DNA of 51,279 nt from Desulfobacteraceae bacterium (GTDB lineage Bacteria; Desulfobacterota; Desulfobacteria; Desulfobacterales; Desulfosalsimonadaceae), in contig JABZFM010000030.1 of assembly GCA_014237465.1 (NCBI GenBank), positions 1 through 51,279 on the forward strand, read 5' to 3'. This document shows positions 7,930 to 34,800 of the stretch, piece by piece. The notes beneath the pieces were generated by a model. It was given only the letters and a program-made list of their open reading frames with translations, was not told the origin of the DNA and ran no database searches. Position numbers and translations under genes: made by a program. Numbering within the stretch: the first letter of the stretch is position 1; each line of letters starts with the position of its first letter.

Positions 7930-8877
7930 TTACACCTCAAAAAAACCGAACAACGTATTTAACCAGCTATTTTCATTTCGTTTAGACAATATTTCATCTT
8001 TCAAAAAAAAGTTGCAGACGTCAACCGGATCAACTTCAGGCAGAATATATAATTTAAAATTTAATTTTCTGCCGGCCTCGGAATTAAAATCAGGGAGGCT
8101 AATCTGATCCGGGCCGGACCACGGGGTCGTGGCCAGATGCGTCAAATATTGAACAAATTCCTTTATTACTGCCTCCGGCTGATCGCAGCAAATTCCTTCA
8201 AAAGAAAACACCATTTCCAAACCTTTTTTATGATCAGCAATCTCATCAGACACCGCCTGGCTGTTTGTTACCAAAAAAGCAGATTCTTCAGCAGAATTTT
8301 TCATTAACCGGAACCAGGCCGCAATTCGTGAACCGGTCATATATGCGCCATAATCATTTTTAAACAGACTTTCCTTTGGCGGATCAAGGATTTTTTCCTC
8401 ACCGGTCATACTGGTAAACAAATCCAGTTCGTCATCTATTGACGATGCCAGTTTCTGATCAATCACACTCTGCTGCAAATCCAGTTCCTGGGCCATTAAA
8501 AGAAATAACCTGGACAAAAACACAGGATCCGGGTCAAAAATTTCATCTTCTTGATTCTTTAAAATATCCGTTCGAATCTGTGAGGTAAATGTTTTATTGG
8601 AAAAACCGTTTTTAAAAATATCCTTTAACGAAGCTTCTTCACCGTGGTGGAGCCGCCCCCATTGTTTAAATTCTTTTAAACAGCCAACCAGGCGGTCTTC
8701 ATCTTCAGAATACGGAACACGGATTTCAATGGAGCCGTTTTCCTCTAATTGGTGAAGCGCTTCCGGCTGATTGTTGGAAACCGGCTGAAAAACAATTATC
8801 CGGCCTAAAAACTGACTCAAGGGCTTTGCAACGGATTCCGGAATATATGTAAACGGAAAATAAATTGGTTTCATCAT
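7930..8877 (-). CDS. Hypothetical protein coupled to the CysK/CysRS-like gene
   Basis: A 315-residue, acidic, apparently cytosolic protein with no signal peptide or transmembrane segment; I recognise no family. The N-terminus MMKPIYFPFTYIPE is followed by helix-rich sequence (SRLFLLMAQELDLQQSVID) and a C-terminal segment YILPEVDPVDVCNFFL. Its ATG overlaps the stop of the preceding gene as ATGA at 8874-8877, so the two are probably translationally coupled and may work together. There is 134 bp before the ferredoxin gene. Confidence 0.7.
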   Translation of the reverse strand: MMKPIYFPFTYIPESVAKPLSQFLGRIIVFQPVSNNQPEALHQLEENGSIEIRVPYSEDEDRLVGCLKEFKQWGRLHHGEEASLKDIFKNGFSNKTFTSQIRTDILKNQEDEIFDPDPVFLSRLFLLMAQELDLQQSVIDQKLASSIDDELDLFTSMTGEEKILDPPKESLFKNDYGAYMTGSRIAAWFRLMKNSAEESAFLVTNSQAVSDEIADHKKGLEMVFSFEGICCDQPEAVIKEFVQYLTHLATTPWSGPDQISLPDFNSEAGRKLNFKLYILPEVDPVDVCNFFLKDEILSKRNENSWLNTLFGFFEV

Positions 8878-11156
8878 ATTTTTAAGTCCTGAATATTGAT
8901 CCCCAGCGCCCGCAACTCTTCTCTTATCTGGTCCGCTTTTTCAAAATCACCGGCGTTTCTGGCAGCCTCTCTTTTTCCCATCAGGTCTCGAAGGCCGGGG
9001 TCCACTTCGATGGGGTTAAAATCAAAAATTTTTATAACGTCATCGACACTTTGGAATGCGCTTAACAGCACTGCCGCGTTGTCGGAATTTATCTGCCGGT
9101 CTTTAATCAATATGTTAATTTTTTTAATGATATTAAAAATCACCACCAGGGCACGGGGAAAATTTAAATCATCGTCCATGGCGGAAATAAATCCCTGTTT
9201 AATATCATAGGCCAGCTGATCAATATCCGGATATTCGCTTCCGTCCTTAATACCCATTAACCCATGGACACAGGAATCAATCCGCTTTAAAGACCTTCTG
9301 GTCTGAATGAGAAGTCTGGTTCTAGAAAATGTGAGCGGCTTGCGATAATGATTGGAAATCAGCCAAAAACGAATTTCCCTTGCGCTAAAGCCTTCTTTGA
9401 CCAATTCATCAAGGGTCGGCAGCAATTGTTTTTCATCATCCGTGGCTTTATTTTCCATCAATACACGTTCACAATGAATCCAGAACTTTGCCAGGGGTTT
9501 TCCGGTGACGGCTTTGGCAATGGCCAGTTCATTTTCATGGTGCGGAAAAACAAGCTCCCGGCTGCTGGTATGAATATCATAAGACTCGCCCAGACATTTC
9601 ATCGACATGGCCGCGCACTGGATGTGCCAGGACGGGCGAACATTTCCCCACTCGGTTTTTACGTAAATGCCCCGTTTCAATTCAGAAAGCCTGGCCCGTT
9701 TCATTAACGTGAAATCCCGGGGATTATTCTTTTCATACTCATCCAGGTCAACGGTTGCACCGAGTTTAATTTTATTCAAGTCAACGCCGGACAGTTTTCC
9801 GTATTCAGGGAAACTGCCGATATTAAAATACAGGGACCGAAGCTTTTCATAAGCAACGCCCTTGTCCATCATCTTTTTTGCCAGATCGACCATATCATCA
9901 ATATGCTCACTGGCTCTTGGATATTTTTCCGCCGGCTGGATCATCAGTCTTTCCAGATCCTGCTTGAACAGGTCAATATATTTTTGCGTAAACTCGGAAA
10001 GCGGTTCTCCTGCAGATTCCGACCCCTGGATGGTCTTGTCGTCAAAATCGGTAATATTCATGACATGATTGACGGAATATCCACGGAACTCCAGGTAACG
10101 GCATAAAATATCAGAAAATACAAACCGCCGGCACTCCTCGATGTGCATCCGGGCATCTGCCGTCGGGCCACAGGAATATACCGACACTTTTCCGGGTTGA
10201 ATCGGTTCAAACGGTTCCTTGGACCGGCTCATGGTGTTAAACAAATGAAGATCCACTTTCTTTTTTACGGCAAACAGGGGTGTGCTCAAATATCTTTCAC
10301 CGCTGTCCGGGAAAATAACCACAATGGTACCTTCCGTCATTTCCGCCGCCTTTTTTGCCGCAATAACCATGGCCGCGCCACTGCTCATACCGACAAAAAG
10401 GCCTTCTTCTTTGCCAAGACGCCGGGTCATTTCAAACGCCTCGTCATCATCTATGTTAATAATTTCATCAATCAATCGTTTATCGAAAATCTCCGGACGG
10501 TAGGCCTCTTTTAAGTTCTTTAATCCCTGGATTTTATGACCCAGGTAAGGTTCCACACCGATGATTTTAATATTGGAATCATACTCACGAAATCGTTTGG
10601 CAACCCCGATAACGGTTCCGGTGGTTCCAATAGTTGCCACAAAAGCGGAAATCCGGCCATCCGTCTGCCGGATAATCTCTTCCGCAGTGCCGGAATAATG
10701 GGCCTTCCAGTTGGCGTCATTATTATATTGATCCGTCATAAAGTACCGGTCCGGATCTTCACGAACAATCCGGTAGACCTCTTCAATCGCTCCGTCGGTT
10801 CCCAGATGGCCGGGTGTTAATAAAATTTCCGCGCCCCGGGCGGCTAATATTTTTCGGCGCTCAACGCTGACAGCTTCCGACATGGCCAGCAGCAGTTTAT
10901 ACCCCTTAATCGCACACACCATGGCCAGCCCGATTCCCGTGTTGCCGCTGGTGGCCTCGATAACGATTTTATCATGTGTCAAAGCACCTGATTTTTCACC
11001 ATTTTCGATCATCGACAGGGCCGGCCGGTCCTTTATGGATCCGCCTGGATTCACGTATTCTATTTTTGCTAAAATTTTAACCTTAGGGTTCGGGTTCAGG
11101 CGATTGATTTCAACCAGCGGCGTGTTTCCGATGGCGTTTAAAATCGAATGATGCAT
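8874..11156 (-). CDS. Cysteine synthase fused to a degenerate cysteinyl-tRNA synthetase-like domain
   Basis: Residues 1-300 form a CysK/CysM-type PLP enzyme: Schiff-base lysine K42 in PGGSIKDRP, the substrate loop ATSGNTGIGLA, the phosphate-binding GTTGT, and GMSSGAA. These make cysteine from O-acetylserine (or O-phosphoserine) and sulfide in known members. Residues 305-760 are cysteinyl-tRNA synthetase-like. Zinc ligand positions of CysRS are kept (C329, C514, H539, E543 within FPHHENE). However, the HIGH motif reads HIEE at 338-341, the HGGG loop reads HTSS, and no KMSKS lies where expected (VLMENKATDD). The C-terminal helical region and the small DQIREELRALGI tail of CysRS are present. The protein may therefore bind cysteine without charging tRNA. 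The stop overlaps the next gene by 4 bp. Confidence 0.88.
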   Translation of the reverse strand: MHHSILNAIGNTPLVEINRLNPNPKVKILAKIEYVNPGGSIKDRPALSMIENGEKSGALTHDKIVIEATSGNTGIGLAMVCAIKGYKLLLAMSEAVSVERRKILAARGAEILLTPGHLGTDGAIEEVYRIVREDPDRYFMTDQYNNDANWKAHYSGTAEEIIRQTDGRISAFVATIGTTGTVIGVAKRFREYDSNIKIIGVEPYLGHKIQGLKNLKEAYRPEIFDKRLIDEIINIDDDEAFEMTRRLGKEEGLFVGMSSGAAMVIAAKKAAEMTEGTIVVIFPDSGERYLSTPLFAVKKKVDLHLFNTMSRSKEPFEPIQPGKVSVYSCGPTADARMHIEECRRFVFSDILCRYLEFRGYSVNHVMNITDFDDKTIQGSESAGEPLSEFTQKYIDLFKQDLERLMIQPAEKYPRASEHIDDMVDLAKKMMDKGVAYEKLRSLYFNIGSFPEYGKLSGVDLNKIKLGATVDLDEYEKNNPRDFTLMKRARLSELKRGIYVKTEWGNVRPSWHIQCAAMSMKCLGESYDIHTSSRELVFPHHENELAIAKAVTGKPLAKFWIHCERVLMENKATDDEKQLLPTLDELVKEGFSAREIRFWLISNHYRKPLTFSRTRLLIQTRRSLKRIDSCVHGLMGIKDGSEYPDIDQLAYDIKQGFISAMDDDLNFPRALVVIFNIIKKINILIKDRQINSDNAAVLLSAFQSVDDVIKIFDFNPIEVDPGLRDLMGKREAARNAGDFEKADQIREELRALGINIQDLKI

Positions 11157-11188: not shown

Positions 11189-11207
11189 TTTTTACAAAGC
11201 CATCAAA
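11189..11207 (-). repeat. Dispersed repeat overlapping the tmk stop codon, copy 2
   Basis: The minus strand reads TTTGATGGCTTTGTAAAAA, identical over 19 bases to 15069-15087. Here it encodes the last residues (MAL) and stop codon of tmk, so the repeat has become part of a coding end. Confidence 0.65.
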
Positions 11208-11830
11208 CATTTTTCCAGGTGTTTTAACATTTGTTCACTTACTTTTGACGGGTCCATAGAAGCATCCACCACCACAAATCGATTCGGCTCTTGCCGGGCA
11301 AGTTCCAGATAGCCGTTTCGAACACTTTCATGGAACTGAAGTCTCTCATTTTCAAACCGGGTTTCCGATTCAGCCCTGGAACCATCCTTGATCTGCTTCC
11401 AGGCACGTTTAAGCCCGATTTCAGGGTCAAGATCAAGTATAAATGTAATATCCGGTTTAAGACCTTCGAGCACCAGACTGTTCAACTGCTGAATCAGGCG
11501 GATGTCAACGCCCCGTGTAAATCCCTGGTAAACGGTTGTTGAATCGCAAAACCGGTCACATATCACGATCTTGCCGGATTCAATCATGGGGCTGATGAGT
11601 TCCTTAATATGCTGAACCCGGTCTGCTGCATACAATAATAATTCCGTTAATGGATGTATATTATTATTTCCCGGATCCAGCAGAATAGATCGAATTTTCT
11701 CTCCAAGCACGGTGCCGCCGGGCTCTTTGGTAATTATGTATTCAAGGCCGAACTTTTGAAGATACGCCGCAATATAATCAATCTGGGTTGTTTTTCCAGA
11801 ACCTTCAATCCCCTCAAGTGTAATCAGCAT
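11192..11830 (-). CDS. tmk: Thymidylate kinase
   Basis: Phosphorylates dTMP to dTDP for DNA synthesis. At 212 residues it has the usual length. The P-loop EGIEGSGKTTQ is at residues 6-16, the dTMP-binding DRFCDSTTVYQG segment is near residue 95, and the lid region contains ESETRFENE. The start codon is supported by the divergent promoter region upstream. In many Deltaproteobacteria tmk lies with holB and metG; here those genes are about 4 kb away on the other strand, which suggests a local inversion. Confidence 0.95.
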   Translation of the reverse strand: MLITLEGIEGSGKTTQIDYIAAYLQKFGLEYIITKEPGGTVLGEKIRSILLDPGNNNIHPLTELLLYAADRVQHIKELISPMIESGKIVICDRFCDSTTVYQGFTRGVDIRLIQQLNSLVLEGLKPDITFILDLDPEIGLKRAWKQIKDGSRAESETRFENERLQFHESVRNGYLELARQEPNRFVVVDASMDPSKVSEQMLKHLEKCLMAL

Positions 11831-16304: not shown

Positions 16305-16985
16305 ATGGATAAAGTTATAGGCATTCGGTTTAAGCCGGCCGGCAAAATTTATGATTTCAGATGCGGCGCTTTTGTTTTAAAAACAGGAGACCATGTGATT
16401 GTTGAAACGGAAAACGGCCTGGGCTTTGGAGAGGTGGCGACACCGCCGACCCAAATCGAAAATAAAAAATGTTCCCGCCCCCTGAAAAAAGTATATCGAC
16501 CGGCAACCGAAAATGATTTCAATCAGATAATAAAAAATTCGGAAACCGAAAACAAAGCATACGAATTCTGCCGTCAGTGCATTCAAGAACTTAAACTTGA
16601 AATGAACCTGTTTCAAACAGAGAGCAATTTCGCCGCAAGCAAAATCACTTTTTTTTTCACAGCCGATGGGCGTGTTGATTTTCGAAAACTGGTAAAAATG
16701 CTGGTAAAAGAATTTCGGACCAAAATTGAAATGCGACAGGTGGGAATCCGCAACCAGGCCAAAATGTGCGGCGGAGTCGGCAGGTGCGGCCGGGAACTCT
16801 GCTGCGCCGCTTTTATGACAAAGTTTGACCCGGTTTCTATCCGGATGGCCAAAAAGCAGGGATTATCGTTAAATCCGACAAAAATATCCGGTGTCTGCGG
16901 AAGACTTATGTGTTGTCTGACATTTGAAAACGATGGATATGAAAAAAAAGAAAAACAGAATAATCGGAAGGAAGCAAAGAATTAA
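16305..16985 (+). CDS. PSP1-domain protein, RicT/YaaT-like
   Basis: A 226-residue PSP1 protein. The conserved cysteine pattern CGGVGRCGRELCC followed by CGRLMCC is that of RicT, which in Bacillus holds an Fe-S cluster in the RicAFT complex that affects RNA processing; the role in Deltaproteobacteria is not established. I chose ATG 16305 over a TTG at 16296 because AAAGGA at 16288-16293 is spaced correctly only for the ATG. The stop TAA overlaps the metG ATG by one base (TAATG). Neighbouring holB, as in Bacillus and many Deltaproteobacteria, supports the call. Confidence 0.88.
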   Translation: MDKVIGIRFKPAGKIYDFRCGAFVLKTGDHVIVETENGLGFGEVATPPTQIENKKCSRPLKKVYRPATENDFNQIIKNSETENKAYEFCRQCIQELKLEMNLFQTESNFAASKITFFFTADGRVDFRKLVKMLVKEFRTKIEMRQVGIRNQAKMCGGVGRCGRELCCAAFMTKFDPVSIRMAKKQGLSLNPTKISGVCGRLMCCLTFENDGYEKKEKQNNRKEAKN

Positions 16986-18943
16986 TGACAACTCCTTTTT
17001 ATATAACCACCCCTATCTATTATGTAAATGCAAAACCCCACATAGGGCACACATATACAACTATTGCCGCTGATGTTGCTAAACGCTTCCATGCCATGAT
17101 GGGCGAAGAGACTTTTTTTTTAACCGGAACCGATGAACATGGCGATAAAATTGTTAAAGCAGCCGAACAGCAGAATATCACGCCAAAAGCGTATGCTGAT
17201 CAGATTAGCAGCTTATTCAGAGATCTGTGGCCGGATTTCAATATTGACAACAATTATTTTATCCGGACAACTGATCCGGATCACATTGCGGTTGTAAATC
17301 AGATCCTGCAAAAAATTTTTGATTCCGGAGATATTTACTTCAGTGAATATGAAGGACTCTACTGTTTCGGGTGCGAACGTTTCTATACGGAGCGTGAGCT
17401 GGTCAACGGTAAATGTCCGGACCATGAGACCGAACCGGAAATTATCAAGGAATCCAATTATTTTTTTAAAATGAGCCGTTACCAGGAATGGCTGATCAAT
17501 CATATAAAAAAAAATCCAAATTTTATTCAACCGGAACGATACCGGAATGAGACCCTTGCGTTTTTGCGCGAACCCCTTGAAGACCTTTGCATTTCCCGCC
17601 CCAAATCCCGACTGGAGTGGGGTATTACTCTGCCATTTGATGAAAACTACGTCACCTATGTGTGGTTTGATGCACTGATCAACTATATTTCCGCCCTGGG
17701 ATTTCCGGATGGTGATAATTTTAAAAAATTCTGGCCCCAGGCCCGTCATATTGTGGCAAAGGATATTTTAAAACCCCACGGCATCTATTGGCCGATCATG
17801 CTGAAAGCAGCAGGCATCGATATTTACAATCACCTTTATGTTCACGGCTACTGGAATATAGATGAAAGCAAAATGTCAAAATCATTAGGCAATGTTGTTG
17901 ATCCCCATTACCTTCAATCGACTTATGGTGCCGACGCCATCCGATTTTTTCTGATGCGGGAAATGGTCTTCGGCCTTGACTCGAATTTTTCTGAAAGCAC
18001 GCTGATCGAACGAATCAACACCGATCTTGCCAATGACCTGGGCAATCTGTTTTCACGGGTGCTGGCAATGTTTCACAAATATTTCAACGGGACAGTGCCT
18101 GAAATTGAGCCCCGGGTCCGAAATGGTGAAAAAGCAGACTTATTTGCAGATGCACAACATACGATCAAAAAATTTAAAGATGAGATGCAGTCCCTCAAGT
18201 TCCACAAGGCCATTGCCTCCATCTGGAATTTTATTTCCAAAATGAATAAATATGTGGTTTCTACCGCACCCTGGGAACTTGCAAAAGATGAAAATAAAAA
18301 AGACCGGCTTGCTGATGTCATTTTTAACCTGATAGAAGGCTTAAGGGTTATTGCCGGACTGATTCTTCCGATCATGCCCCAGACCTCTGCCACCATGCAA
18401 AAACATCTGGGAATAAACGAGGAAAATGCGTTGTCAACGTTTGATCGTTTAGAGCAATGGGGATCCATTAAAACGGGCACCGGTCTTCCAAAACCGGTGA
18501 CCCTGTTTCCCCGAATCGATGTGAAAAACAAAAACCGGCAAAATAAAAACCTGAAAAATATAAACCAGACACCGGTCAAACAGGGAAAACCTGAAAAAAA
18601 ATCCCTGCCTGATTTAAAACCTGAAATTTCTTTTGATGACGTGTTGAAATTAGATCTGCGGGTTGCCACAGTCACCCATGCGGAAAAAATACCTAAGGCA
18701 AACAAGCTTCTTAAGCTGGAAGTTGATCTTGGAGAGGAAAAAAGAACCATTGTTGCAGGAATTGCTAAAAGCTATTCCCCCGAAGAAATTTGCGGCAAAC
18801 AGGTTATTGTTGTTGCCAATTTAAAGCCGGCAAAATTAATGGGAGTTCAGTCCCAGGGAATGCTACTGGCATCTGTTACAGATGATGCATGCGCAATTGC
18901 GACAATTGAAAAATCTGTTCCTTTGGGAGTTCCGGTAAAATAA
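16985..18943 (+). CDS. metG: Methionyl-tRNA synthetase
   Basis: Charges tRNA-Met with methionine. The class I signatures are intact: PHIGHTYTT near the N-terminus and KMSKSLGN around residue 298. A zinc-finger insertion has CFGCERFY and CPDHE, with His in place of the last Cys. The C-terminal extension after residue 545 is an EMAP-II/Trbp-like tRNA-binding domain (LDLRVATV, LGEEKRTIVAGI, LKPAKLMGVQSQGM), so this is the long dimeric form (652 residues). A Lys/Asn-rich linker joins the two parts. It is the last gene of the holB-ricT-metG operon. Confidence 0.97.
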   Translation: MTTPFYITTPIYYVNAKPHIGHTYTTIAADVAKRFHAMMGEETFFLTGTDEHGDKIVKAAEQQNITPKAYADQISSLFRDLWPDFNIDNNYFIRTTDPDHIAVVNQILQKIFDSGDIYFSEYEGLYCFGCERFYTERELVNGKCPDHETEPEIIKESNYFFKMSRYQEWLINHIKKNPNFIQPERYRNETLAFLREPLEDLCISRPKSRLEWGITLPFDENYVTYVWFDALINYISALGFPDGDNFKKFWPQARHIVAKDILKPHGIYWPIMLKAAGIDIYNHLYVHGYWNIDESKMSKSLGNVVDPHYLQSTYGADAIRFFLMREMVFGLDSNFSESTLIERINTDLANDLGNLFSRVLAMFHKYFNGTVPEIEPRVRNGEKADLFADAQHTIKKFKDEMQSLKFHKAIASIWNFISKMNKYVVSTAPWELAKDENKKDRLADVIFNLIEGLRVIAGLILPIMPQTSATMQKHLGINEENALSTFDRLEQWGSIKTGTGLPKPVTLFPRIDVKNKNRQNKNLKNINQTPVKQGKPEKKSLPDLKPEISFDDVLKLDLRVATVTHAEKIPKANKLLKLEVDLGEEKRTIVAGIAKSYSPEEICGKQVIVVANLKPAKLMGVQSQGMLLASVTDDACAIATIEKSVPLGVPVK

Positions 18944-23148: not shown

Positions 23149-24798
23149 ATGCAAAGTCAGCCCCTCTCATCAATAGGTTACTGGGAATCGACAACAACTT
23201 ACCCTGCATTTTCCCAAAGCGACTTGCTTTCGGTAATCCCTTTGGTACGTGAACCAGTTCATGTGGTACAAGAAGGATCAGACGGACGGCTGGGCCTATC
23301 TTTATCCGGCCAGGTTTTCCCCGCATCCGGCCCTACATCTGGCACGGAAAATAATAAATTCCGTCTCATGGCGTCACTTCCCGCGCTTTACCCGGAATGG
23401 TTGGGAGACCGATCATTTCTGGAGGTACACTCGGTCCGGTTCCCATATATTTCAGGTGCCATGTTTCGAGGTATTGCATCCGCCGATATGGTGATTGAAA
23501 TGGCAAGAGCCGGAATGATCGGTTTTTTCGGCGCAGCAGGACTTGCCGTAAAAGATGTTGAGAAAGCCATAAATAAAATCAAAACCGCCATTGGCGAATC
23601 AGGACTATCCTGGGGCAGTAATTTGATACATTCGCCTAACGAACCTGAACTGGAGGGAAAAGTGGTTGATCTTTACCTCAAAAAAGGGGTGAAGCGAGTA
23701 TCAGCCGCAGCGTTTATGACGCTCACGCCAAATGTCGTGCGATATGCCTGTACGGGTTTATCCGCAGACAATAATGGAAGAATCCATAGAAAAAATTTTA
23801 TTTTTGCAAAACTTTCCCGCCCGGAGGTGGCACGGTTGTTTATGTCGCCGGCGCCAAAACAAATCCTTGATCTCCTAGTGACCCAGGGCAAATTAACAAA
23901 AACGGAAGCGATATTGGCATCCAAAATACCCATTGCCGAGGATATCACTGTTGAAGCGGACTCAGGCGGGCATACGGATAACCGGCCGCTTACCGCCCTC
24001 TTTCCGACTATTCTTGCAATAAGAGATGAAATTTCATCAGAAAAAGGGTATGACCGCCCAATCAGAATAGGCGCCGCAGGGGGATTAGGTACGCCATCGT
24101 CAATTGCCGCCGCATTTTCCATGGGTGCCGCATATGTGCTCACCGGTTCCGTTAATCAATCAGCAGTGGAATCGGGTTTGTCCCGGGAAGGAAGAAAAAT
24201 GCTGGCCCTGGCTGATGTTGCCGACGTGACAATGGCGCCTGCTGCAGACATGTTCGAGTTGGGTGTCAAGGTCCAGGTATTAAAACGCGGAACTATGTTC
24301 TCCAACCGGGCGGCTAATCTCTATACAATCTATTCGGAAAATAGTTCTATCGATACAATTCCCAAAGACGTTAAAACCCGATTGGAAAAAGATGTATTTC
24401 ATGCTCCGCTGGAAAAGATCTGGGCGGATACCCGCGATTTTTTTTCCGAGCGTGACCCGGCGGAGATCGAAAAGGCCGAAAAAAATCCAAAACACCTCAT
24501 GGCCTTAATCTTCAAATGGTATTTGGGAAACTCAGCCATTTGGGCTATCCACGGTGATCCGGCGCACACGATTGACTATCAAATTTGTTGCGGCCCTTCC
24601 ATGGGCGCTTTTAATGCATGGGTCAAGGGTTCGTACCTTGAAAAATCTGAAAACCGAACGGTATCGGATATTGCCCTTAATCTTCTCGAAGGTGCGGCAG
24701 TTGTAACAAGAGCCCAGCAGGTTCGAAGTTATGGGGTTCCGGTGCCCGGCGAGGCCTTTAATTTCAGGCCTCGACCGCTTTCTTATTACAATGCATAG
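23149..24798 (+). CDS. pfaD: PUFA synthase enoyl reductase (Pfa1/PfaD type)
   Basis: Stand-alone FMN-dependent enoyl reductase acting in trans on the ACP-bound chain. The 549-residue protein is a 2-nitropropane-dioxygenase/NPD-like TIM barrel: AGMIGFFGAAGLAV, EDITVEADSGGHTDNRP, GAAGGLGTPSSIAAAF and GAAYVLTGSVNQ are diagnostic of PfaD/OmpD-type reductases. The C-terminus (AIWAIHGDPAHTIDYQICCGPSMG) is the region shared by PfaD proteins. It comes first in the operon, as in myxobacterial pfa1-pfa2-pfa3 clusters, and is followed after 54 bp by pfa2. The stop codon lies inside a short tandem repeat. Confidence 0.94.
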   Translation: MQSQPLSSIGYWESTTTYPAFSQSDLLSVIPLVREPVHVVQEGSDGRLGLSLSGQVFPASGPTSGTENNKFRLMASLPALYPEWLGDRSFLEVHSVRFPYISGAMFRGIASADMVIEMARAGMIGFFGAAGLAVKDVEKAINKIKTAIGESGLSWGSNLIHSPNEPELEGKVVDLYLKKGVKRVSAAAFMTLTPNVVRYACTGLSADNNGRIHRKNFIFAKLSRPEVARLFMSPAPKQILDLLVTQGKLTKTEAILASKIPIAEDITVEADSGGHTDNRPLTALFPTILAIRDEISSEKGYDRPIRIGAAGGLGTPSSIAAAFSMGAAYVLTGSVNQSAVESGLSREGRKMLALADVADVTMAPAADMFELGVKVQVLKRGTMFSNRAANLYTIYSENSSIDTIPKDVKTRLEKDVFHAPLEKIWADTRDFFSERDPAEIEKAEKNPKHLMALIFKWYLGNSAIWAIHGDPAHTIDYQICCGPSMGAFNAWVKGSYLEKSENRTVSDIALNLLEGAAVVTRAQQVRSYGVPVPGEAFNFRPRPLSYYNA

Positions 24799-24824
24799 TA
24801 TAATGCATAGTATAATTTATAGTA
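24791..24824 (+). repeat. 12-bp tandem repeat at the pfa1/pfa2 junction
   Basis: ATGCATAGTATA is repeated exactly twice (24791-24802, 24803-24814) followed by a degenerate third unit. The first copy contains the pfa1 stop codon. Variation in copy number would change the spacing between pfa1 and pfa2. Confidence 0.7.
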
Positions 24825-24852
24825 GTTAAATAATACATAGTGAGATAATACA

Positions 24853-27800
24853 ATGTCCCCAATAAAAAAAACCACACAAATTAAAACGAAAAAGACGAAA
24901 AACCAGACCAGGAGCAAAACGTCCTTGCAAAGAATACAGGACAACGTGACGCCGGTTGCAGTCATCGGTATGGGCTGTCTCTTTCCAGGCTCTAATGACA
25001 AAGAGGGCTATTGGCAGGACATCACGACCGGGCGGGATATGGTTACAGAAGTTCCGCCAAGCCACTTTCTCATAGACCACTACTTTGACCCTGATCCTTC
25101 CGTTGCCGACAAAACATATTGCAGGCAAGGCGCTTTTCTTTCTCCAATCGAATTTGATCCTATGGCATTCGGCATTCCGCCAACAAATCTGGCCGCAACA
25201 GACACATCGCAGCTTTTAAGCCTTGTGGTCGCCAAACAGGTTCTTAAGGATGCTTTTCCCGGACAGCTCAAGAATGTGGACCGCAGCCGGATAGGCGTTG
25301 TAATGGGCGTGGCCGCCGGCCTGGAGTTACTCGGCGAGATGGCGAATCGGCTTGTGAAACCCAATTGGGTCAAGGGCATGCGAGAAGCAGGTCTTCCTGA
25401 AGATGAGGTTGTAGACATCTGTGAACGGATCATGTCAACCCATGCGCCGTGGAAGGAAAGCACATTCCCTGGCCTGCTTGGAAATGTGGTCTCCGGACGG
25501 ATTTCGAATTATTTCGATCTGGGCGGCATTAATTGTACGAGTGATGCCGCTTGTGCCAGCTCTTTTTCCGCCCTGTCCCAGGGGCTCAATGAAATTTACA
25601 TGGGAACGTCTGATGTTGTTCTTGTGGGGGGAGTTGATACAAACAATGATACTTTTTTATTTGTCAGTTTCTCCAAAACGCCTGCCCTGTCCCCCACACA
25701 CAATTGTCGCCCTTTTTCCGACAAAGCCGACGGCATGGTTTTAGGCGAAGGTGTCGGCATGATCGCTATCAAACGGCTTGATGATGCAGAACGCGACGGC
25801 GACCAAATCTACGCTGTAATACGCGGAATTGGCACGTCATCAGACGGCAAGGGATCGAGTATTTATGCACCGGTTGCGAAGGGCCAGGCCGTCGCTCTCA
25901 GGCGATGTTATGAGGCCGCATCTTACAGTCCTGAGACTGTGGAGCTGCTCGAAGCCCACGGGACCGCAACCCCGCCAGGAGACAAAGCCGAAGTTGAAGC
26001 ACTTACCACGGTCTTTGGCGATGAGACAGAACGAAAAGACAAACAATGGTGCGCACTCGGATCGGTAAAATCCCAAATCGGTCACACAAAAAGCGCGGCT
26101 GCCACAGCCGGAATCATCAAGGCTGTTATGGGCCTTCATCACAAGGTCCTTCCGCCCACGATCAAGGTTGAACAACCCAGTCCTTTGATGAAGATTAAAG
26201 AAAGTCCATTTTATGTGAATACAGAGTGCCGCCCATGGGTGAGGGATGATTCGCACCCCAGAAGGGCTTCGATCAGCTCTTTCGGTTTTGGCGGGACCAA
26301 TTTCCATGTAACTGTAGAAGAATATCAGGGACCCGGTAAATCAGCATGTCGCCTGCGCAATGTTCCGAGTGAACTCGTGGTGATGGGCGCAGAAAACGCC
26401 AAAGGGCTTGAAAATCTGTGCCGGGACACAGCCAAAGATTTAGACACAAAAGGCGTCCTGGCATATCTTGCAAGGACTTCACAGGAAAGCTTTGACGCGT
26501 CGTGCCCGGCAAGATTAGCGATCGTTGCATCAAACGAAAAGGACCTCGAAGCCAAGCTTAATTACGCGGCCAAGACATTATCCGAGAAGCCCGACAGCAG
26601 GTTTTCATTGCCCAACGGATTATTCTGCACTGTGGAAAAAGCGGACCCGGGCGCCATCGCTTTTCTGTTCCCGGGACAGGGCACCAGCGGATGCCTTGAT
26701 ATGGGAGCAGATCTCGCTATGCAGTTCACCGATGCAATGGATGTTTGGAACTTTTCGGCCTCTTTTGACCAAAAACGCGGGGCAAAGGAACCTTTGCACA
26801 AGGTAGTCTATCCCATGCCTGTGTTTAATGATGAAGACAAAAAAGCACAAAGCGAAAAACTTGCCCAAACCCAATGGGCCCAACCTGCCGTTATGGTAAC
26901 GAGCCTGTCCATGTCAAGCATACTCAAAGGTCTCGGTATCAAACCCGACTGCGTGGGTGGCCACAGTCTTGGTGAGATTTCTGCGCTTCACGACGCCGGC
27001 GTTCTGGATATCGAAAGCCTGCTCAGCGTTTGCTTCAAAAGAGGCGAACTGATGGCAGCCAGAGCCGCTAAAAATCCAGGTACGATGACAGCTGTTCTCT
27101 GTGACGTTGACAAAGCACAGGACATACTCGACAAGATCGGGACCGACATCATCATTGCCAATCACAACAGCCCAAGCCAGATTGTTCTTTCCGGACCTAT
27201 CCCCGACATGGAAGAGGTCGAACAGGTCCTTAAAAAAGAAAAAATAAAATTCAGGCGCCTGCCGGTCTCTGCCGCATTCCATTCCTCTCTCATGACCGAA
27301 GTGTGCGCTCCTTTTCTGGACTATATAAAGGGATTTGATTTTAAAAAGGCAACGGTTCCTGTTTATTCAAATATTAGCGGAAAACCGCATCAGAACAAAC
27401 CCGAAAAAATTCGTGAAACACTTACAAAACAGATCGTCAACCCTGTTTTATTTGTAAAAGAGATCGAAGAAATGTACGCGGCAGGCGTTCGGACGTTTAT
27501 AGAAGTAGGTTCAGGTTGTGTACTCACCAATTGTGTCGCAAAAATATTAGAAAACAAATCCCATGCCGCCATAAATATGGACACCAAAAAGGAGCATGGC
27601 ATAACCAGCCTTTGGAAAGCGCTGGCAAAGCTCATCATAGCCGGCGTGACACCCGACTTTTCCTATCTGTGGAAAGACCATGCACCTTTAAGCGATCCCC
27701 GGAAAAAGGAAAAACCCAAATTCTCAGTAACCTTAACAGGCACTAACTACGGAAAACCATATCCCCCTCCCGGAGGAATAGATGCCTATCCAAAACCAAA

Positions 27801-30800
27801 TCCACCGAGACCTCAAACAGTTGACAAGGAGTCTGAACAATTGAAAGCTGCATCCAATAATAATACGGGCAATACAGTTAACGCTGAGCCTGAAAACCAA
27901 AAATCTGCTCAGCCGGAAAAGCCCGCGCCGGCAATATCAAGTAATGCTAATGCATCACCTGGAATTCCGGCTGCTCCCGCGGCCCTGCCGATCCAACAGC
28001 CACACTCCGGACTTGGGGTGGCGAAGCCTGCTCCGCTATCCGGCAATGTTATCAGGGGAGAAAATAGCTCCTGGGTAGCAGCCTATCAAAATATTCAGCA
28101 GCAAACAACAGAGGCCCACGCGGCTTATCTAAAGGTTATGGCTGAAAGCCACCTTGGCTTTCTAAGAGCCGCCGAGTCTTCCAATATCGCCCTCAGCGCG
28201 CTCCTAACCGGACAACCTGCTGTTCCAGGTGAGGCCGGTCTTCCGGCCATGAGCACGAGTGCCGATATCGCAGCACCTGAATCCGTGCCGCTTGTACCGT
28301 CAACGCCTGAATATACGCCGGATGCTATCCCAGCTGCTGTGCCGCCTGCTCCAAAACCCGAGACAGCGCACCCAGCGCCAGCACCTTTGGCGGCTGCACC
28401 AGTACAAGTACCCCCTTCGGCTGCCGAGCAGGCGCCTGTTTCCCCTGATTCCTATGATTCCAATGATATCGACTTCAAAGAGATGCTTTTAGATGTGGTT
28501 GCTGACAAAACCGGTTATCCAAAGGAAATTTTAACTGTTGAAATGGATCTTGAACTTGATCTTGGAATAGACTCTATCAAGCGCGTTGAAATTTTTTCCG
28601 CAATCAATGAAGAAAACCCATGGCTGCCGGAAGTTGATCCTGCGGTAATGGCCGACATTAAAACACTTGGTGATGTCATTGATTTTATTGGTCAACATGC
28701 ACCTTCAATACCTGATGCACCGGCACAACTGGCCGCTGCTGCTTCAGTTGCCGCACCGGTTTCAGAACCGCAATCATCTCTTTCGGCTGCCGAGCAGGCA
28801 CCTGTTCCCCCTGATTCCCCTGATTCCCCTGATTCCAATGGCATCGATTTTAAAGAGATGCTTCTTGATGTGGTCGCTGACAAAACCGGTTATCCAAAGG
28901 AAATTTTAACTGTCGAAATGGATCTTGAGCTTGATCTTGGAATAGACTCTATTAAGCGCGTTGAAATTTTTTCCGCAATCAATGAAGAAAACCCATGGCT
29001 GCCGGAAGTTGATCCTGCGGTAATGGCCGACATTAAAACACTTGGTGATGTCATTGATTTTATTGGTCAACATGCACCTACAATACCTGATGCACCGGCA
29101 CACCAGGCCGCTGTTGCTTCAGTCGCCGCACCGGTTTCGGCGTCGCAAGCATCTCCTTTGGCTGCTGAACAGGCATCTGTTCCAAGTGATATCGATTTTA
29201 AAGAGATGCTTCTTGATGTGGTCGCTGACAAAACCGGTTATCCAAAGGAAATTTTAACTGTCGAAATGGATCTTGAGCTTGATCTTGGAATAGACTCTAT
29301 CAAGCGCGTCGAGATTTTTTCCGCAATCAATGAAGAAAACCCCTGGATGCCGGAAGTTGATCCTGCGGTAATGGCCGACATTAAAACACTTGGTGATGTC
29401 ATTGATTTCATTGAACGTTCACTTGGTAAAGTAAGGAACAGTGCTTCCGACCCGGCAGGTGCCTCAGCTCCGGCAGTAGAAACAGAAACAAAGGAAAAAA
29501 GTTCGGGGATTGGTAGATATGTGCTCCGGGAAACCCTGGCGCCCCGTTCCGGTTTTTCAATGCCCGGGCTCGCCGAAGCGAACCATCTATGTATTACCGA
29601 TGATGAAACCGGTACCGGTATTAGTATTGGGGCTGCCCTGGCCGAAGAGCTCGAAAAAAACGGAATAAGTGCCACGGTTATTAAAAAAATCCCCGACGAC
29701 TGCGACGGATTGATCTTCCTTGACGGCTTGCGCAAAATTTCGAAAAAGCAGGACGCCATTGATGTCAATCGGGAAGCTTTTATCGCCGCTAAAAAAATAG
29801 CCGGTCGGTTTACTGAGTCAGGGGGCGTTTTTGTTACAGTACAAAACACCGGAGGCGACTTCGGACTCTCAGGACAGGCAGGCGATGGCGTCTGGCTTTC
29901 CGGGCTTACCGGCCTGGTGAAGACCGCTGCCATCGAATGGCCCAAAGCGTCGGTCAAAGCTATCGACATTGATCGCGGCCGATTGTCGACTAAAAAACTT
30001 GCATCGGCCATCTGCCTTGAGCTCCTGACCGGCGGGCCGGAATTGGAGGTCGGGCTCAAATCGGACGGCAGCCGCTATCGTCTCAAGAGTTATAGTGAGC
30101 CCGCCAGGGATTCCGGCACCGCGCTGAATGAAAATTCGGTCATTATTGCTTCCGGCGGAGCCAGGGGAATTACCGCAAAGGCACTCATCCAACTGGCCCG
30201 CGATGTACGTCCCCGTCTTGCGCTGATCGGCAGAACCCAGCCCATGGATGAAATGGACGAACCGGACTGCTGCCGTGGGGCCGCAACCGATGCCGAATTA
30301 AAAGTCGCGCTTTTGCAAGATGCTAAGGCAAACGGAAAAACCGTGACACCGATGGATCTCAAAAAACAGGTCCATAAAATCCTTGCTGGCCGGGAAATAA
30401 AATCAAACCTGGAGGCGATGAAGCAAGCCGGCTCTGATACGAGGTATATCGTCGCCGACGTGCAGAATGAATCCGATATTTCAAAGGCGCTCAACGCAAT
30501 CCGCAAAGAATGGGGAGGCATCACGGGTATTGTGCACGGCGCTGGTGTCCTGGCAGACAAGCTGATAGCCGAAAAGACTGTAGAACAATTCGATCGGGTC
30601 TTTAACACCAAGGTGAAAGGACTCGAATCGCTTCTTAAAGTCACTGCCAAAGACTCGCTGAGCGTCATATGTCTCTTCTCATCCATTGCAGGGCGCACCG
30701 GCAATATGGGACAATGCGATTATTCCATGGCCAACGAAATCCTTAACAAGGTCGCGGATGCAGAGGCGATAAAGCGCAAAGGCAAATGTTTTGTAAAATC

Positions 30801-31812
30801 CTTAAATTGGGGTCCGTGGGATAGTGGCATGGTCTCTGGGCTTCTCAAAGCCCATTTCAAGGAAGCCGGCATTCCCCTGATACCTGTTGATGTCGGGGTG
30901 AAGCGCTTTGTGAAAGAAATAACCGAGGACGCACCGAAAGACGTAGAGGTTGTCATCGGCCCCGAGCCCCCGGATGGTTCCCTCGCCATAAGTCCTATAA
31001 CCCGGGAGCTCAACTTGAGCCTGCTGGTGAACAAAGAGAAGTATCCCTTTATCGACAGCCATCGTATACAGGATACTCCAGTAGTCCCGGTTGCGATGGT
31101 TATTGAGTGGTTTTCTAGGACAGCTGAACTTTACAACCCGGATATGAATTACGTTGGATGCAGAGACCTCAGGGTCCTGCGCGGGATCAAGCTCGATAAC
31201 TTCATAAAAGGCAGTGATCTTTTCACGGTATGCTGCCGTCAGGAAAACGGAGACAGATCTTTTCTTGCTCTGGATTTGCTGGGGCCTGATAGCGGCGCGC
31301 ATTACACCGCAAGGATAGAAATGTCTCATAAAAACCCTGTAAACAATAATGCGACCAAATCTAAGGCAAATGGACTTCCCTCATGGAAGTGGGACGTTTC
31401 CGAGATTTACAAAGAAAAGCTCTTTCACGGACCGAAATTTCAAGTCATTAAATCCTTGGAAGGTGTTTCCGACGATGCAGCAACAGCAGTTTTAGGGGGA
31501 ATAGATGGAATGTCCTGGCCTGAAGCACTCTGGAAATACGATGTCGCCGCACTTGACGGCGGCTTGCAACTCGCCATCTTGTGGGGAATACACAATTCAA
31601 ACAAAAAATCCTTGCCAACAAAAATAGGCGCCTGTTACTCCTACCAAAACGGCCCGATAAGCGGACCTATTGATTGCGTACTGAGTGGCAAATCAATTCA
31701 AAATGGACGTACACTCTCGGACATATCGTTCTTCGATAAAGATGGGATACTTGCTGCAAAGCTGTGCGACGTAGAGATGCACATGCTGACGGATACAGCG
31801 ACCCAGAGATAG
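24853..31812 (+). CDS. PUFA/secondary-lipid synthase Pfa2: KS-MAT-ACP-ACP-ACP-KR-DH
   Basis: A 2319-residue iterative polyketide/fatty-acid megasynthase that builds the chain on its ACPs. The order is as follows. The ketosynthase spans ~35-490, with C234 in SDAACASS, H369 in EAHGTATP and H411 in GHTKSAAATAG. The malonyl-acyltransferase spans ~590-890 (FPGQGTSG; S705 in GGHSLGE). A Pro/Ala-rich linker follows. Three acyl carrier domains each have LGIDSIKR, with the pantetheine serine at S1241, S1366 and S1482. The ketoreductase spans ~1755-2030 (GGARGI; SSIAGRTGN; Y1957 and N1961). A product-template-like dehydratase hot-dog lies at the end (H2070 in DSHRIQDTPVVP). Active-site residues are present in every domain. 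The ribosome-binding site is weak. In the family the number of tandem ACPs affects yield. Confidence 0.93.
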   Translation: MSPIKKTTQIKTKKTKNQTRSKTSLQRIQDNVTPVAVIGMGCLFPGSNDKEGYWQDITTGRDMVTEVPPSHFLIDHYFDPDPSVADKTYCRQGAFLSPIEFDPMAFGIPPTNLAATDTSQLLSLVVAKQVLKDAFPGQLKNVDRSRIGVVMGVAAGLELLGEMANRLVKPNWVKGMREAGLPEDEVVDICERIMSTHAPWKESTFPGLLGNVVSGRISNYFDLGGINCTSDAACASSFSALSQGLNEIYMGTSDVVLVGGVDTNNDTFLFVSFSKTPALSPTHNCRPFSDKADGMVLGEGVGMIAIKRLDDAERDGDQIYAVIRGIGTSSDGKGSSIYAPVAKGQAVALRRCYEAASYSPETVELLEAHGTATPPGDKAEVEALTTVFGDETERKDKQWCALGSVKSQIGHTKSAAATAGIIKAVMGLHHKVLPPTIKVEQPSPLMKIKESPFYVNTECRPWVRDDSHPRRASISSFGFGGTNFHVTVEEYQGPGKSACRLRNVPSELVVMGAENAKGLENLCRDTAKDLDTKGVLAYLARTSQESFDASCPARLAIVASNEKDLEAKLNYAAKTLSEKPDSRFSLPNGLFCTVEKADPGAIAFLFPGQGTSGCLDMGADLAMQFTDAMDVWNFSASFDQKRGAKEPLHKVVYPMPVFNDEDKKAQSEKLAQTQWAQPAVMVTSLSMSSILKGLGIKPDCVGGHSLGEISALHDAGVLDIESLLSVCFKRGELMAARAAKNPGTMTAVLCDVDKAQDILDKIGTDIIIANHNSPSQIVLSGPIPDMEEVEQVLKKEKIKFRRLPVSAAFHSSLMTEVCAPFLDYIKGFDFKKATVPVYSNISGKPHQNKPEKIRETLTKQIVNPVLFVKEIEEMYAAGVRTFIEVGSGCVLTNCVAKILENKSHAAINMDTKKEHGITSLWKALAKLIIAGVTPDFSYLWKDHAPLSDPRKKEKPKFSVTLTGTNYGKPYPPPGGIDAYPKPNPPRPQTVDKESEQLKAASNNNTGNTVNAEPENQKSAQPEKPAPAISSNANASPGIPAAPAALPIQQPHSGLGVAKPAPLSGNVIRGENSSWVAAYQNIQQQTTEAHAAYLKVMAESHLGFLRAAESSNIALSALLTGQPAVPGEAGLPAMSTSADIAAPESVPLVPSTPEYTPDAIPAAVPPAPKPETAHPAPAPLAAAPVQVPPSAAEQAPVSPDSYDSNDIDFKEMLLDVVADKTGYPKEILTVEMDLELDLGIDSIKRVEIFSAINEENPWLPEVDPAVMADIKTLGDVIDFIGQHAPSIPDAPAQLAAAASVAAPVSEPQSSLSAAEQAPVPPDSPDSPDSNGIDFKEMLLDVVADKTGYPKEILTVEMDLELDLGIDSIKRVEIFSAINEENPWLPEVDPAVMADIKTLGDVIDFIGQHAPTIPDAPAHQAAVASVAAPVSASQASPLAAEQASVPSDIDFKEMLLDVVADKTGYPKEILTVEMDLELDLGIDSIKRVEIFSAINEENPWMPEVDPAVMADIKTLGDVIDFIERSLGKVRNSASDPAGASAPAVETETKEKSSGIGRYVLRETLAPRSGFSMPGLAEANHLCITDDETGTGISIGAALAEELEKNGISATVIKKIPDDCDGLIFLDGLRKISKKQDAIDVNREAFIAAKKIAGRFTESGGVFVTVQNTGGDFGLSGQAGDGVWLSGLTGLVKTAAIEWPKASVKAIDIDRGRLSTKKLASAICLELLTGGPELEVGLKSDGSRYRLKSYSEPARDSGTALNENSVIIASGGARGITAKALIQLARDVRPRLALIGRTQPMDEMDEPDCCRGAATDAELKVALLQDAKANGKTVTPMDLKKQVHKILAGREIKSNLEAMKQAGSDTRYIVADVQNESDISKALNAIRKEWGGITGIVHGAGVLADKLIAEKTVEQFDRVFNTKVKGLESLLKVTAKDSLSVICLFSSIAGRTGNMGQCDYSMANEILNKVADAEAIKRKGKCFVKSLNWGPWDSGMVSGLLKAHFKEAGIPLIPVDVGVKRFVKEITEDAPKDVEVVIGPEPPDGSLAISPITRELNLSLLVNKEKYPFIDSHRIQDTPVVPVAMVIEWFSRTAELYNPDMNYVGCRDLRVLRGIKLDNFIKGSDLFTVCCRQENGDRSFLALDLLGPDSGAHYTARIEMSHKNPVNNNATKSKANGLPSWKWDVSEIYKEKLFHGPKFQVIKSLEGVSDDAATAVLGGIDGMSWPEALWKYDVAALDGGLQLAILWGIHNSNKKSLPTKIGACYSYQNGPISGPIDCVLSGKSIQNGRTLSDISFFDKDGILAAKLCDVEMHMLTDTATQR
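28465..29414 (+). repeat. Three near-identical ACP-encoding direct repeats in pfa2
   Basis: Units at about 28465-28737, 28841-29102 and 29188-29414 encode the tandem ACPs. They differ by only a few mostly silent bases (for example GTTGAAATTTTTTCC against GTCGAGATTTTTTCC), so the copies are recently duplicated or homogenised by gene conversion. A 9-bp tandem repeat (CCTGATTCC, encoding PDS) lies in the linker near 28808-28834. Confidence 0.9.
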
Positions 31813-31827
31813 GAGAACAGCTATAAG

Positions 31828-34800
31828 ATGTCCTTTGAACCGATTGCCATAGTTGGACAGTCATGCGTCCTTCCGGGAGCGCTTAATCCTAAGGAGCTAT
31901 GGGACAAAATAGCCGCTGGTAAGAATCTATTATCCAAAATACCTGAAGGTTATTGGAGGACTGACCCCAATCTGGTCATGGCCGCTCCCGGGCAAAACGC
32001 CAGAGATATCACCTGGTGTGACCAGGGTGGGTATGTCAGCGGATTTGAATCGGTGTTTAGTCCCCACGGTTTTGCGATTCCGGAAGAAGAAGTCGTGAAA
32101 TACGGAACCATGGTCCACTGGCTCCTCCACACAGCCCGCGAAGCCTTAAACGATGCCGGATACCAAAACGCCAGGGGACTTAACGCAGGGATAGCCTTTG
32201 GTAACTTGTCCTATCCATCACCCTCCATGTCCGAATTTGCAGAATCTGTCTGGCTTGACGCACAAGCCGGCGACTTTTGGGGCGGCAGAGCAAGACAGCT
32301 GGCAAAAGTTATAAAGCCTCACGCCATAAACAGATTCATGTCCGGTTTTCCCGCACACGTCGTGGCTCGGGCGCTCGAGTTGAACAAAGGCGCATTCGCT
32401 ATTGACGCTGCGTGTGCGTCATCCCTATTCGCCATGAAAATAGCCTGTGACAAGCTCCACGACAGAAAAGCAGACCTGATGCTGGCAGGCGGTGTACAAG
32501 GATCAGATGATCTGATTATCCACATCGGTTTTTGCACATTGCAGGCCATGAGCCGAACTAGCCGGAGCCGTCCTTTTCACAAAAATGCAGACGGTCTGGT
32601 CCCCGCCGAGGGCGGTGGGTTCCTGGTGCTAAAGCGACTCGTGGATGCTGTCAGGGCAGGCGATAAGATCCACGGGGTAATAAGGGCGATTGGTCTTTCA
32701 AACGATGGTAAGGGGCATGGACTACTTGTCCCTTCGGCCGACGGCCAGTTCAGGGCCATGCAAAAGGCCTATCAAATGTCCGGGATCAATCCGTCACAAA
32801 TCTCGTTGCTCGAGTGCCATGCGACCGGGACAAAAGTCGGAGATGATATTGAATTGGAAAGCTCCAGCCGTATCTTCCAAGGCTTAAGTGGGGTTCCCAT
32901 TGGCACGATAAAATCCAACATGGGGCATCCCATCACTGCATCCGGTATCGCAGGCCTCTTGAAAGTAACCGGAGCGATGAAGGCAGGCATCAGGCCGCCT
33001 ACACTCCACGTAGATAAGCCGAGCGAAGCGTTAAAAGGTACTCCGTTCCGTCTCATCAAAGAATCAGAGCCGTGGCCTTCAGACTCCCCGAGGATTGCCG
33101 GGATAAGTAATTTCGGCTTTGGCGGCAACAACGCTCATCTTATCTTAGAAGAATGGGATAAGGGATCATACAAAAAGCCGCCTGAAACAAAGCCACTCCC
33201 AAAAATAGAAATTGCCGTCGTCGGCATGGGTGCTATGGTCGCTTCCGGTACGGGAATGAAAGATTTTACGAGGACAGTTTTCTCCGGGAGACCCGCTCTT
33301 TTAAAACAGGATGACGGTACGAGAGCTGGAGCAGCAGTTTCGTGTGAGCTGCCGCTAATGGGACTCCGGTTTTTCCCGGCTGCCCTCGACCAAACTCTCC
33401 CGCAACAGCTCCTCATACTAAAAGCGACTATGGAAGCACTTGATGAGGTCAACAAATTTCCCAACAAACGTGCCGGCGTCTTTGTCGGGATGGGATGTGA
33501 TTGCGAGGTCACCCGTTCCGGGATGTGCTGGCGTCTCCCGCAATTTGTCTGCGACTGGCTGGAGACAAAGAAAATAACCCCAAAGATGAAGGATTGGATT
33601 GAGTTTGTCAAAGATGACCAGATCAATCCGGCGCGGGAGGCATCGGCGATTTTAGGCGCCATGCCGAATATAGTTGCAAACCGACTCAACAGCCAGTTTG
33701 ATGTCGAAGGGCAGAGCTTTACTGTCTCGTCGGAGGAACTCTCGGGCGTAAGATGCCTTGAACTGGCTATCCGTGCGCTCAAAGCAGATGAGATAGATGC
33801 GGCTGTCGTGGGCGCTGTCGACATATCGTGTGAAACCGTGCATATGGCGGCTGTCAAAGAAATACTGGATAACGAAAGACAAATTCCGGGAGACGCCGCA
33901 ATCTCCCTGATCTTGAAGCGTGCTAAAGATGCGAGATCCGACGGTGACAAGATATATGCGCTGCTCCCAAATGAGATGGATGAGCCAAATGAGATAGATA
34001 AGATAGATGAGCCATATCAGGATCAGGATAAAAAACCCGCGCTTGAACTATCACTCGACAAAAACGGGCAAAGTATTACACCGCTTACAGGGCACGCCCA
34101 TACCGCGTCGGGGTTGCTTCATGTTGCAACGGCAGCGCTGGCATGCCACTACAGAGCGCAACCCGCAGGGGTCGGAAAAAAGGCGATCCCCTGGCTGTCG
34201 TCTCACTCACGGTCTGCGAAGGTCACGATAAATGCTCTTGGCGGAGAATCTTCAACAGTAATTGTAAAAGAGGATAAAAAAACCTCTCCCGGACATCTGC
34301 CATTAGACTCTGCCCCCAGGCTCCATATTTATTCCGGCAAAGATCAAAAAAAAATATTAGAGAACCTCGACAAAGGCCGCGAATCAGACATCGGGCCTGC
34401 GCGTCTGGTTCTCGTAGCCAAGGATACGGCTTCGCTCGAAGACTTACAAAAACAGTCCAGGGTCCTCCTTGAAAAAAAGCAAAACATAAAAAACGTTTTT
34501 CTTGGAAAAGGCATCTACTTCTGCAGTCAACCGTATGAAGGTGAACTTGCGTTTGTATTTACAGGCCCCGCAGGCGCATACCCGCTAATGGGCAGAGAGC
34601 TGTATCTTGCTCTGCCAGAGCTTGTTGAAGAAGTAATTTCTCATCTCGGCTTAAACGCTGAAGTGACTGCCGAATGGATTCTCGGCCCAGACGAAGGCGG
34701 GACCCAGACTCCGGAAACCATGCTGTGGAGAAGTTCCTTCTTGTCCCAAATCCATGCGGTCGTTTCTCAGAAATATCTCGGTCTCAGGCCACAGGCCGCC

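Follow-up and report, generated by a model that had tools for sequence, protein, structure and literature searches.

A cysteine synthase fused to a cysteinyl-tRNA synthetase-like domain in Desulfobacterota, with a possible link to tRNACys

HisZ, a paralogue of histidyl-tRNA synthetase (HisRS), is the regulatory subunit of HisG and mediates feedback inhibition by histidine (PMC9437257), and the HisRS-like domain of Gcn2 binds uncharged tRNA (PMC4335047). MshC, the mycothiol cysteine ligase, performs an ATP-dependent ligation (PMC9736012). CysE is the usual feedback point of cysteine synthesis (PMC8786284), and the major identity elements of tRNACys are the GCA anticodon and U73 (PMC9976931). 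Here, we describe a gene of a Desulfobacteraceae bacterium (assembly GCA_014237465.1) in which a cysteine synthase is joined to a domain resembling cysteinyl-tRNA synthetase (CysRS). It lies in a stretch of 51,279 nucleotides of contig JABZFM010000030.1 (positions 1 to 51,279, forward strand), all of which is called the window. Our preferred interpretation, which we regard as about evenly poised between right and wrong, is that this protein is a CysE-independent cysteine synthase carrying a tRNACys-binding pseudo-CysRS as its built-in regulator, in the manner of HisZ or Gcn2. Among the open-licence papers listed by literature searches, none describes a fusion of cysteine synthase with CysRS, a description elsewhere being possible, and look-ups of terms in PMC2922099, PMC5424206, PMC8762117, and PMC9437257 gave no mention of one.

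A reading of the DNA made from its sequence alone (the sequence-only reading) had placed such a fusion at 8874-11156, and this assignment was borne out by Pfam, NCBIfam, and fold matches. The gene and its parts are as follows, where PLP stands for pyridoxal 5'-phosphate and OASS for O-acetylserine sulfhydrylase.

8874..11156, minus strand: fusion gene, cysteine synthase plus CysRS-like domain, 760 amino acids (open reading frame with ATG start; Pfam and NCBIfam; relatives; AlphaFold)
10269..11156, minus strand: CysK/CysM-type PLP domain, residues 1-296 (TIGR01136; fold match to OASS 2q3b)
11031..11033, minus strand: Lys42 in NPGGSIKDR, which we take to be the PLP-binding lysine (aligned Lys in 133/133 rows)
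10251..10298, minus strand: inter-domain linker, about residues 287-302 (AlphaFold predicted local distance difference test, pLDDT, <50 at 287-299)
8886..10250, minus strand: CysRS-like domain, residues 303-757 (TIGR00435; fold match to 1u0b)
8886..9002, minus strand: CysS_C anticodon-binding domain, residues 719-757, with R729, R733, D742, R745, G752, and D757 (PF23493; residue retention)

Pfam placed PALP at residues 6-284 (E 3.6e-69), the CysRS catalytic family PF01406 at 316-615 (E 1.1e-77) and, further toward the C terminus, DALR_2 at 656-711 and CysS_C at 719-757. With NCBIfam, the protein scored just above the cut-off both for cysteine synthase (TIGR01136, 363.3 bits, cut-off 344.15) and for cysS (TIGR00435, 349.6 bits, cut-off 340), and best-hit annotation would probably label it as plain CysRS or plain cysteine synthase. 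In the AlphaFold model (mean pLDDT 84.7, predicted template modelling score, pTM, 0.60), Foldseek matched the PLP half to cysteine synthases (OASS 2q3b, TMt 0.88) and the CysRS-like half to the CysRS structures 8qhp, 1u0b, and 1li5 (TMt 0.79 for the CysRS:tRNACys complex 1u0b). Judged from its sequence, the fusion is more than chance or decay, since 80 relatives were kept and many positions of the CysRS half are invariant among them. Eroded catalytic motifs would suit a second half that is a functionless evolutionary remnant; we hold this to be extremely improbable, as the reading frame and many invariant residues are kept across the phylum.

Alignment to E. coli CysRS (chain 1li5) located the motifs of the synthetase half, which read exactly as had been claimed: HIGH has become HIEE, HGGG has become HTSS, KMSKS is missing, and all four zinc ligand positions are occupied.

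10134..10145, minus strand: HIEE (338-341) at the HIGH position
10170..10172, minus strand: C329, zinc ligand position, equivalent to E. coli C28
9615..9617, minus strand: C514, zinc ligand position, equivalent to E. coli C209
9561..9572, minus strand: HTSS (529-532) at the HGGG position
9540..9542, minus strand: H539, zinc ligand position, equivalent to E. coli H234
9528..9530, minus strand: E543, zinc ligand position, equivalent to E. coli E238
9432..9446, minus strand: ATDDE (571-575) at the KMSKS position, variable in close relatives

The PLP domain of the window protein carries the PLP lysine and the TSGNTG, GTxGT, and SSGA motifs. A separate canonical cysS, which had been suggested as a check, is present in the same genome; its product scores 581 bits and has HIGH and KMSKS in its sequence. 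The earlier reading had not mentioned the C-terminal anticodon-binding domain, which is present as well and better kept than any other part of the CysRS-like half.

These features were followed across 132 homologues, comprising 81 close members (the window protein and its 80 relatives) and 51 distant members from 53 loci chosen non-randomly for spread, two of which (L135 and L142) were set aside because of their short length; L132 lacks its C-terminal part, and a 133-row motif comparison leaves out L014, whose start is cut. A HIGH-like motif (HxGH or HxGN) occurs in 4/132 and a KMSKS-like motif in 11/132, with both in only 2/132, compared with 31/31 canonical CysRS that keep the two together. 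Together with the canonical cysS elsewhere in the genome, these counts suggest that amino-acid activation and tRNA charging have likely been lost, as the sequence-only reading had proposed. The part of that claim that does not carry over concerns the two members with both motifs, L144 (G002) and L162 (G198), which have HLGN with KMSRS, near-intact forms of the kind that the reading itself had named as contrary evidence; possibly they are the least degenerate forms of the fusion. They also speak, along with the score of 349.6 against a TIGR00435 cut-off of 340, for the fusion being an additional CysRS in reduced form, still able to charge tRNACys in certain conditions. We consider this highly improbable, given that HIGH, HGGG, and KMSKS are all altered in the window protein and that the HIGH and KMSKS pair is missing from 130/132 members.

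The sequence-only reading had further suggested that the zinc site may hold cysteine. All four ligands are kept in 93/132 homologues, two or more are changed in 20/132, and both cysteines are lost in 14/132; on this last count, the cysteine pocket was rejected as a function conserved throughout the family. Among the close members, all four ligands occur in 73/81 and the C329 position is kept in 77/81, and the positions T68, D69, D71, D72, W205, and H224 are mostly retained, so that the window's close relatives could still bind cysteine. Near the window's own group, the pocket appears to be lost as well: four close relatives (L067, L068, L069, and L077) have the zinc set YCHV (C28 to Tyr, E238 to Val), and in three of them T68 and H224 are also changed. 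The same evidence bears on a cysteine-holding module whose zinc pocket would capture cysteine just after its synthesis, whether to channel it, to sense it, or to use it in persulfide chemistry, with tRNA uninvolved. Its ligands and pocket residues in the window and close members fit this idea, which we nevertheless rate as unlikely: the 14 members without both zinc cysteines have intact synthase motifs, E238 is kept in only 0.45 of distant members, and the best-kept part of the half, the anticodon domain, would be left unexplained.

Retention was measured at 135 positions invariant in at least 16 of 17 canonical CysRS, these 17 belonging to a set of 31 that was used in full solely to build the tree and to count motifs. 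Across the 9 positions of the C-terminal domain, canonical-invariant residues were retained at 0.92 (close members) and 0.89 (distant members), as compared with 0.25 and 0.39 across the 11 positions of the KMSKS loop and 0.53-0.70 in the remaining CysRS regions. In the 14 zinc-less members, C-terminal retention was 0.89 versus 0.43 elsewhere (p 0.00045, sampling positions). A second arginine following R42, specific to the fusion, is found in 131/132, and the PLP lysine is aligned in every row, with some distant rows reading SSGNTG, MSAGA, or MSGGA at the other synthase motifs. From these counts, therefore, the activation chemistry appears to be gone and the cysteine pocket gone in several lineages, while the synthase motifs and the anticodon domain are kept. 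Because 14/14 zinc-less members keep the six anticodon-domain markers R423, R427, D436, R439, G446, and D451, the retained common feature is probably tRNA recognition and not cysteine holding. The retention data also fit a scaffold that docks tRNACys or the canonical CysRS and delivers fresh cysteine at the charging site, the synthase being unregulated. The coexistence of a canonical CysRS in the same genome agrees with such a scaffold, and the low-confidence linker and uncertain domain arrangement weigh against it; on balance we find it quite unlikely.

The relatives came from a pattern-based scan, the 80 kept being the best 80 of 120 confirmed stretches. They are 54-93% identical to the window protein over the best segment, and their titles name Desulfobacterales kin, Deltaproteobacteria or Proteobacteria, plus the Olavius algarvensis Delta 4 endosymbiont. 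Searches of the order and phylum used a 42-member alignment of the fusion (A1). Within the order, a long fusion match was found in 103/118 genomes, some of them cut at contig ends (G362, G420, and G471), and at least two further genomes hold fusion pieces (G396 and G482). Across the phylum, 165/394 genomes and 106/248 genera match at E<=1e-140, some partially (G062, G252, and G011). In a tree built from 100 CysRS domains (50 from distant and 19 from close fusions, and 31 canonical, rooted by midpoint only), a branch with support 100 has every canonical CysRS on the same side, and for this reason a single origin of the fused CysRS paralogue is the simplest reading of these sequences. Two genomes (G458 and G440) each hold two long fusion matches, and one member of the order (G296) has no long fusion match and nothing that matches TIGR01136 at E<=1e-60.

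In 79/165 fusion genomes, TIGR01136 matches the fusion and nothing else at E<=1e-60; in many genomes it is thus the only direct cysteine synthase recognised by these searches. CysE was sought with TIGR01172 at E<=1e-15, covering 76 of these 79 fusion-only genomes, and was matched in 2/76 (G048 and G075, both below the family cut-off). By comparison, 40/40 genomes with both the fusion and another CysK (sampled from 86) and 34/40 genomes lacking the fusion (sampled from 229) had a CysE match (Fisher p 3.9e-29 and 8.6e-21, respectively, uncorrected for shared ancestry); the 80 comparison genomes were hand-picked from lists and hence non-random, and 16/80 exceed the CysE family cut-off. The PLP domain is probably independent of CysE-made O-acetylserine, because it is the sole family match in many relatives and CysE was not found alongside it, with an unrelated serine acetyltransferase possible as a source of that substrate. 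A cystathionine beta-synthase reading was rejected: TIGR01137 gave 295.6 against a cut-off of 510.25, and the PF01053 transsulfuration enzymes that would have to follow it gave no match at E<=1e-40 in 62/76 fusion-only genomes.

As for the substrate, O-phosphoserine is perhaps used. K213 sits in a three-residue insertion relative to CysK, and would correspond to R220 of mycobacterial CysM. PF00266, used to look for SerC, matched in 43/43 genomes and is too broad a family to show SerC. Speaking against O-phosphoserine, it is O-acetylserine, rather than O-phosphoserine, that Campylobacter jejuni CysM uses (PMC9855970), and SerACB does not appear to be encoded in two Desulfovibrio genomes (PMC7311316). 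Another possibility is that the PLP domain has as its substrate a seryl or phosphoseryl moiety on a tRNACys that the pseudo-synthetase holds. The presence of a tRNACys-type domain beside a PLP sulfhydrylase where CysE was not found, in genomes mostly without PF01053 enzymes, would accord with such tRNA-dependent synthesis. Against it, SepRS (TIGR00470) was found in 0/77 genomes, the window's own included, and TIGR00435 matches at least twice at E<=1e-40 in 158/165 fusion genomes (hand count). Moreover, no fold-type II PLP enzyme is known to act on aminoacyl-tRNA, and we judge this possibility very unlikely. A broader proposal is a bacterial tRNACys-linked route that replaces CysE in many lineages, in which the pseudo-synthetase holds tRNACys and the synthase either acts exclusively on this tRNA or is active only once bound to it. 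We think this quite doubtful; if true, cysteine synthesis would be metered directly by the tRNA that consumes the cysteine.

In the regulatory interpretation that we prefer, the N-terminal PLP domain would make cysteine, perhaps from O-phosphoserine, and the C-terminal half would be a CysRS descendant that has lost ATP activation and charging. This half would have been retained because its anticodon domain still binds tRNACys, as the pattern of residue retention suggests, and the bound tRNACys would report its charging state and turn cysteine synthesis up or down at the last step. Where the zinc pocket is intact, cysteine or Cys-tRNACys is perhaps also bound. Such last-step regulation would matter where CysE is missing, and would take over the feedback role that is usually played by CysE. 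If so, a large part of one phylum (the 165/394 genomes above) would control cysteine synthesis through an enzyme-fused domain that reads tRNACys, and this would help to fill a pathway gap in the 74/76 fusion-only genomes in which CysE was not found.

Several observations weigh against this interpretation, in addition to the two near-intact members. The fusion also occurs alongside CysE-CysK; the window's own genome has a second cysteine synthase (450 bits) with a CysE match adjoining it on the same contig (165 bits, below the cut-off of 210.65), and the fusion is therefore not merely a CysE substitute. CysE was likewise not matched in 6/40 of the sampled genomes that lack the fusion. In the 14 zinc-less members, 34/135 reference positions are fully retained, and since 28 of these core positions lie outside the C-terminal domain, folding alone could explain part of the retention. 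The interpretation also takes R427, D436, R439, and D451 to be anticodon-contacting residues in E. coli CysRS. Finally, with a pTM of 0.60, the relative placement of the two halves in the model is uncertain and should not be relied upon.

The genes on either side of the fusion are conserved in position.

7930..8877, minus strand: downstream gene, 315 amino acids, without a family or fold match (a relative directly downstream in 73/80 loci)
11192..11830, minus strand: thymidylate kinase gene (tmk), upstream neighbour (TIGR00041)

The 4-bp overlap of the fusion (8874..11156) with the next gene, and the suggestion that the two are functionally linked, had both been put forward beforehand; the overlap is confirmed by the coordinates, and the link is supported by conservation, as in 73/80 loci the fusion is immediately followed by a relative of the 315-aa gene. 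Among the seven misses, three loci have <600 bases downstream (L026, L044, and L068), one has a relative after a run of N (L076), and three have >3 kb downstream without a 315-aa relative (L016, L036, and L042). A 1122-aa open reading frame in L076, considered as a triple fusion with the downstream gene, was ruled out because it crosses the stretch of N. A tmk match lies upstream in 73/80 loci as well; six of the other seven have <500 bases upstream, and the seventh (L039) has 6000 bases upstream without a tmk match. The 315-aa protein is fast-evolving (mean column identity 26% versus 71% for the fusion), and its model has a pLDDT of 88.2 and a pTM of 0.87. A fold search of the PDB gave nothing at E<=0.001, Pfam assigned no family (each of 10 families hit just one of 54 members at E<=0.1), and its profile matched open reading frames in 2/53 distant loci (L151 and L156).

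Elsewhere in the window, a methionyl-tRNA synthetase with a C-terminal tRNA-binding domain is encoded at 16985-18943 on the plus strand, about 6 kb from the fusion. At 23149-40128, also on the plus strand, lies a polyunsaturated fatty acid (PUFA)-synthase-like cluster, which we take to be of the Pfa type. It encodes proteins of the FabD-insert/NMO, KS-AT-ACP-KR (2319 aa), and KS/FabA (2766 aa) types and is followed by a PAS/LuxR regulator.

Set against described systems, the fusion resembles each in part. Like MshC, it is a CysRS paralogue that would act outside translation, and it scores 167.5 bits against the MshC family TIGR03447, below the cut-off of 485.1. CysRS* of Desulfobacterales is also a CysRS paralogue and bears the same order name as most relatives of the fusion; it lacks an anticodon domain and charges SelC* (PMC9437257), whereas the fusion keeps that domain. 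O-phosphoserine sulfhydrylases such as mycobacterial CysM share the CysK/CysM family and do not require CysE. In contrast to the fusion, they are not known to have a synthetase domain. The SepRS-SepCysS enzymes are unrelated to the fusion. Their likeness to it is that they tie cysteine synthesis to tRNACys (PMC5424206). HisZ is an aminoacyl-tRNA synthetase paralogue that lacks adenylation and is tied to an enzyme making its own amino acid (PMC9437257). The fusion may be viewed as a HisZ-like paralogue, the covalent link and motif loss being observed and the absence of charging suggested by them. HisZ differs in being a separate subunit; the fusion is class I, is covalently joined, and keeps its anticodon domain. 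HisZ is, moreover, of class II descent. With the HisRS-like domain of Gcn2, the common feature is a pseudo-synthetase fused to an effector enzyme, which is a eukaryotic kinase there and a bacterial cysteine synthase here, tRNA binding by the latter being predicted from its sequence. If the fusion does control cysteine synthesis by reading tRNACys, it would amount to a protein-based bacterial equivalent of Gcn2 or of the T-box.

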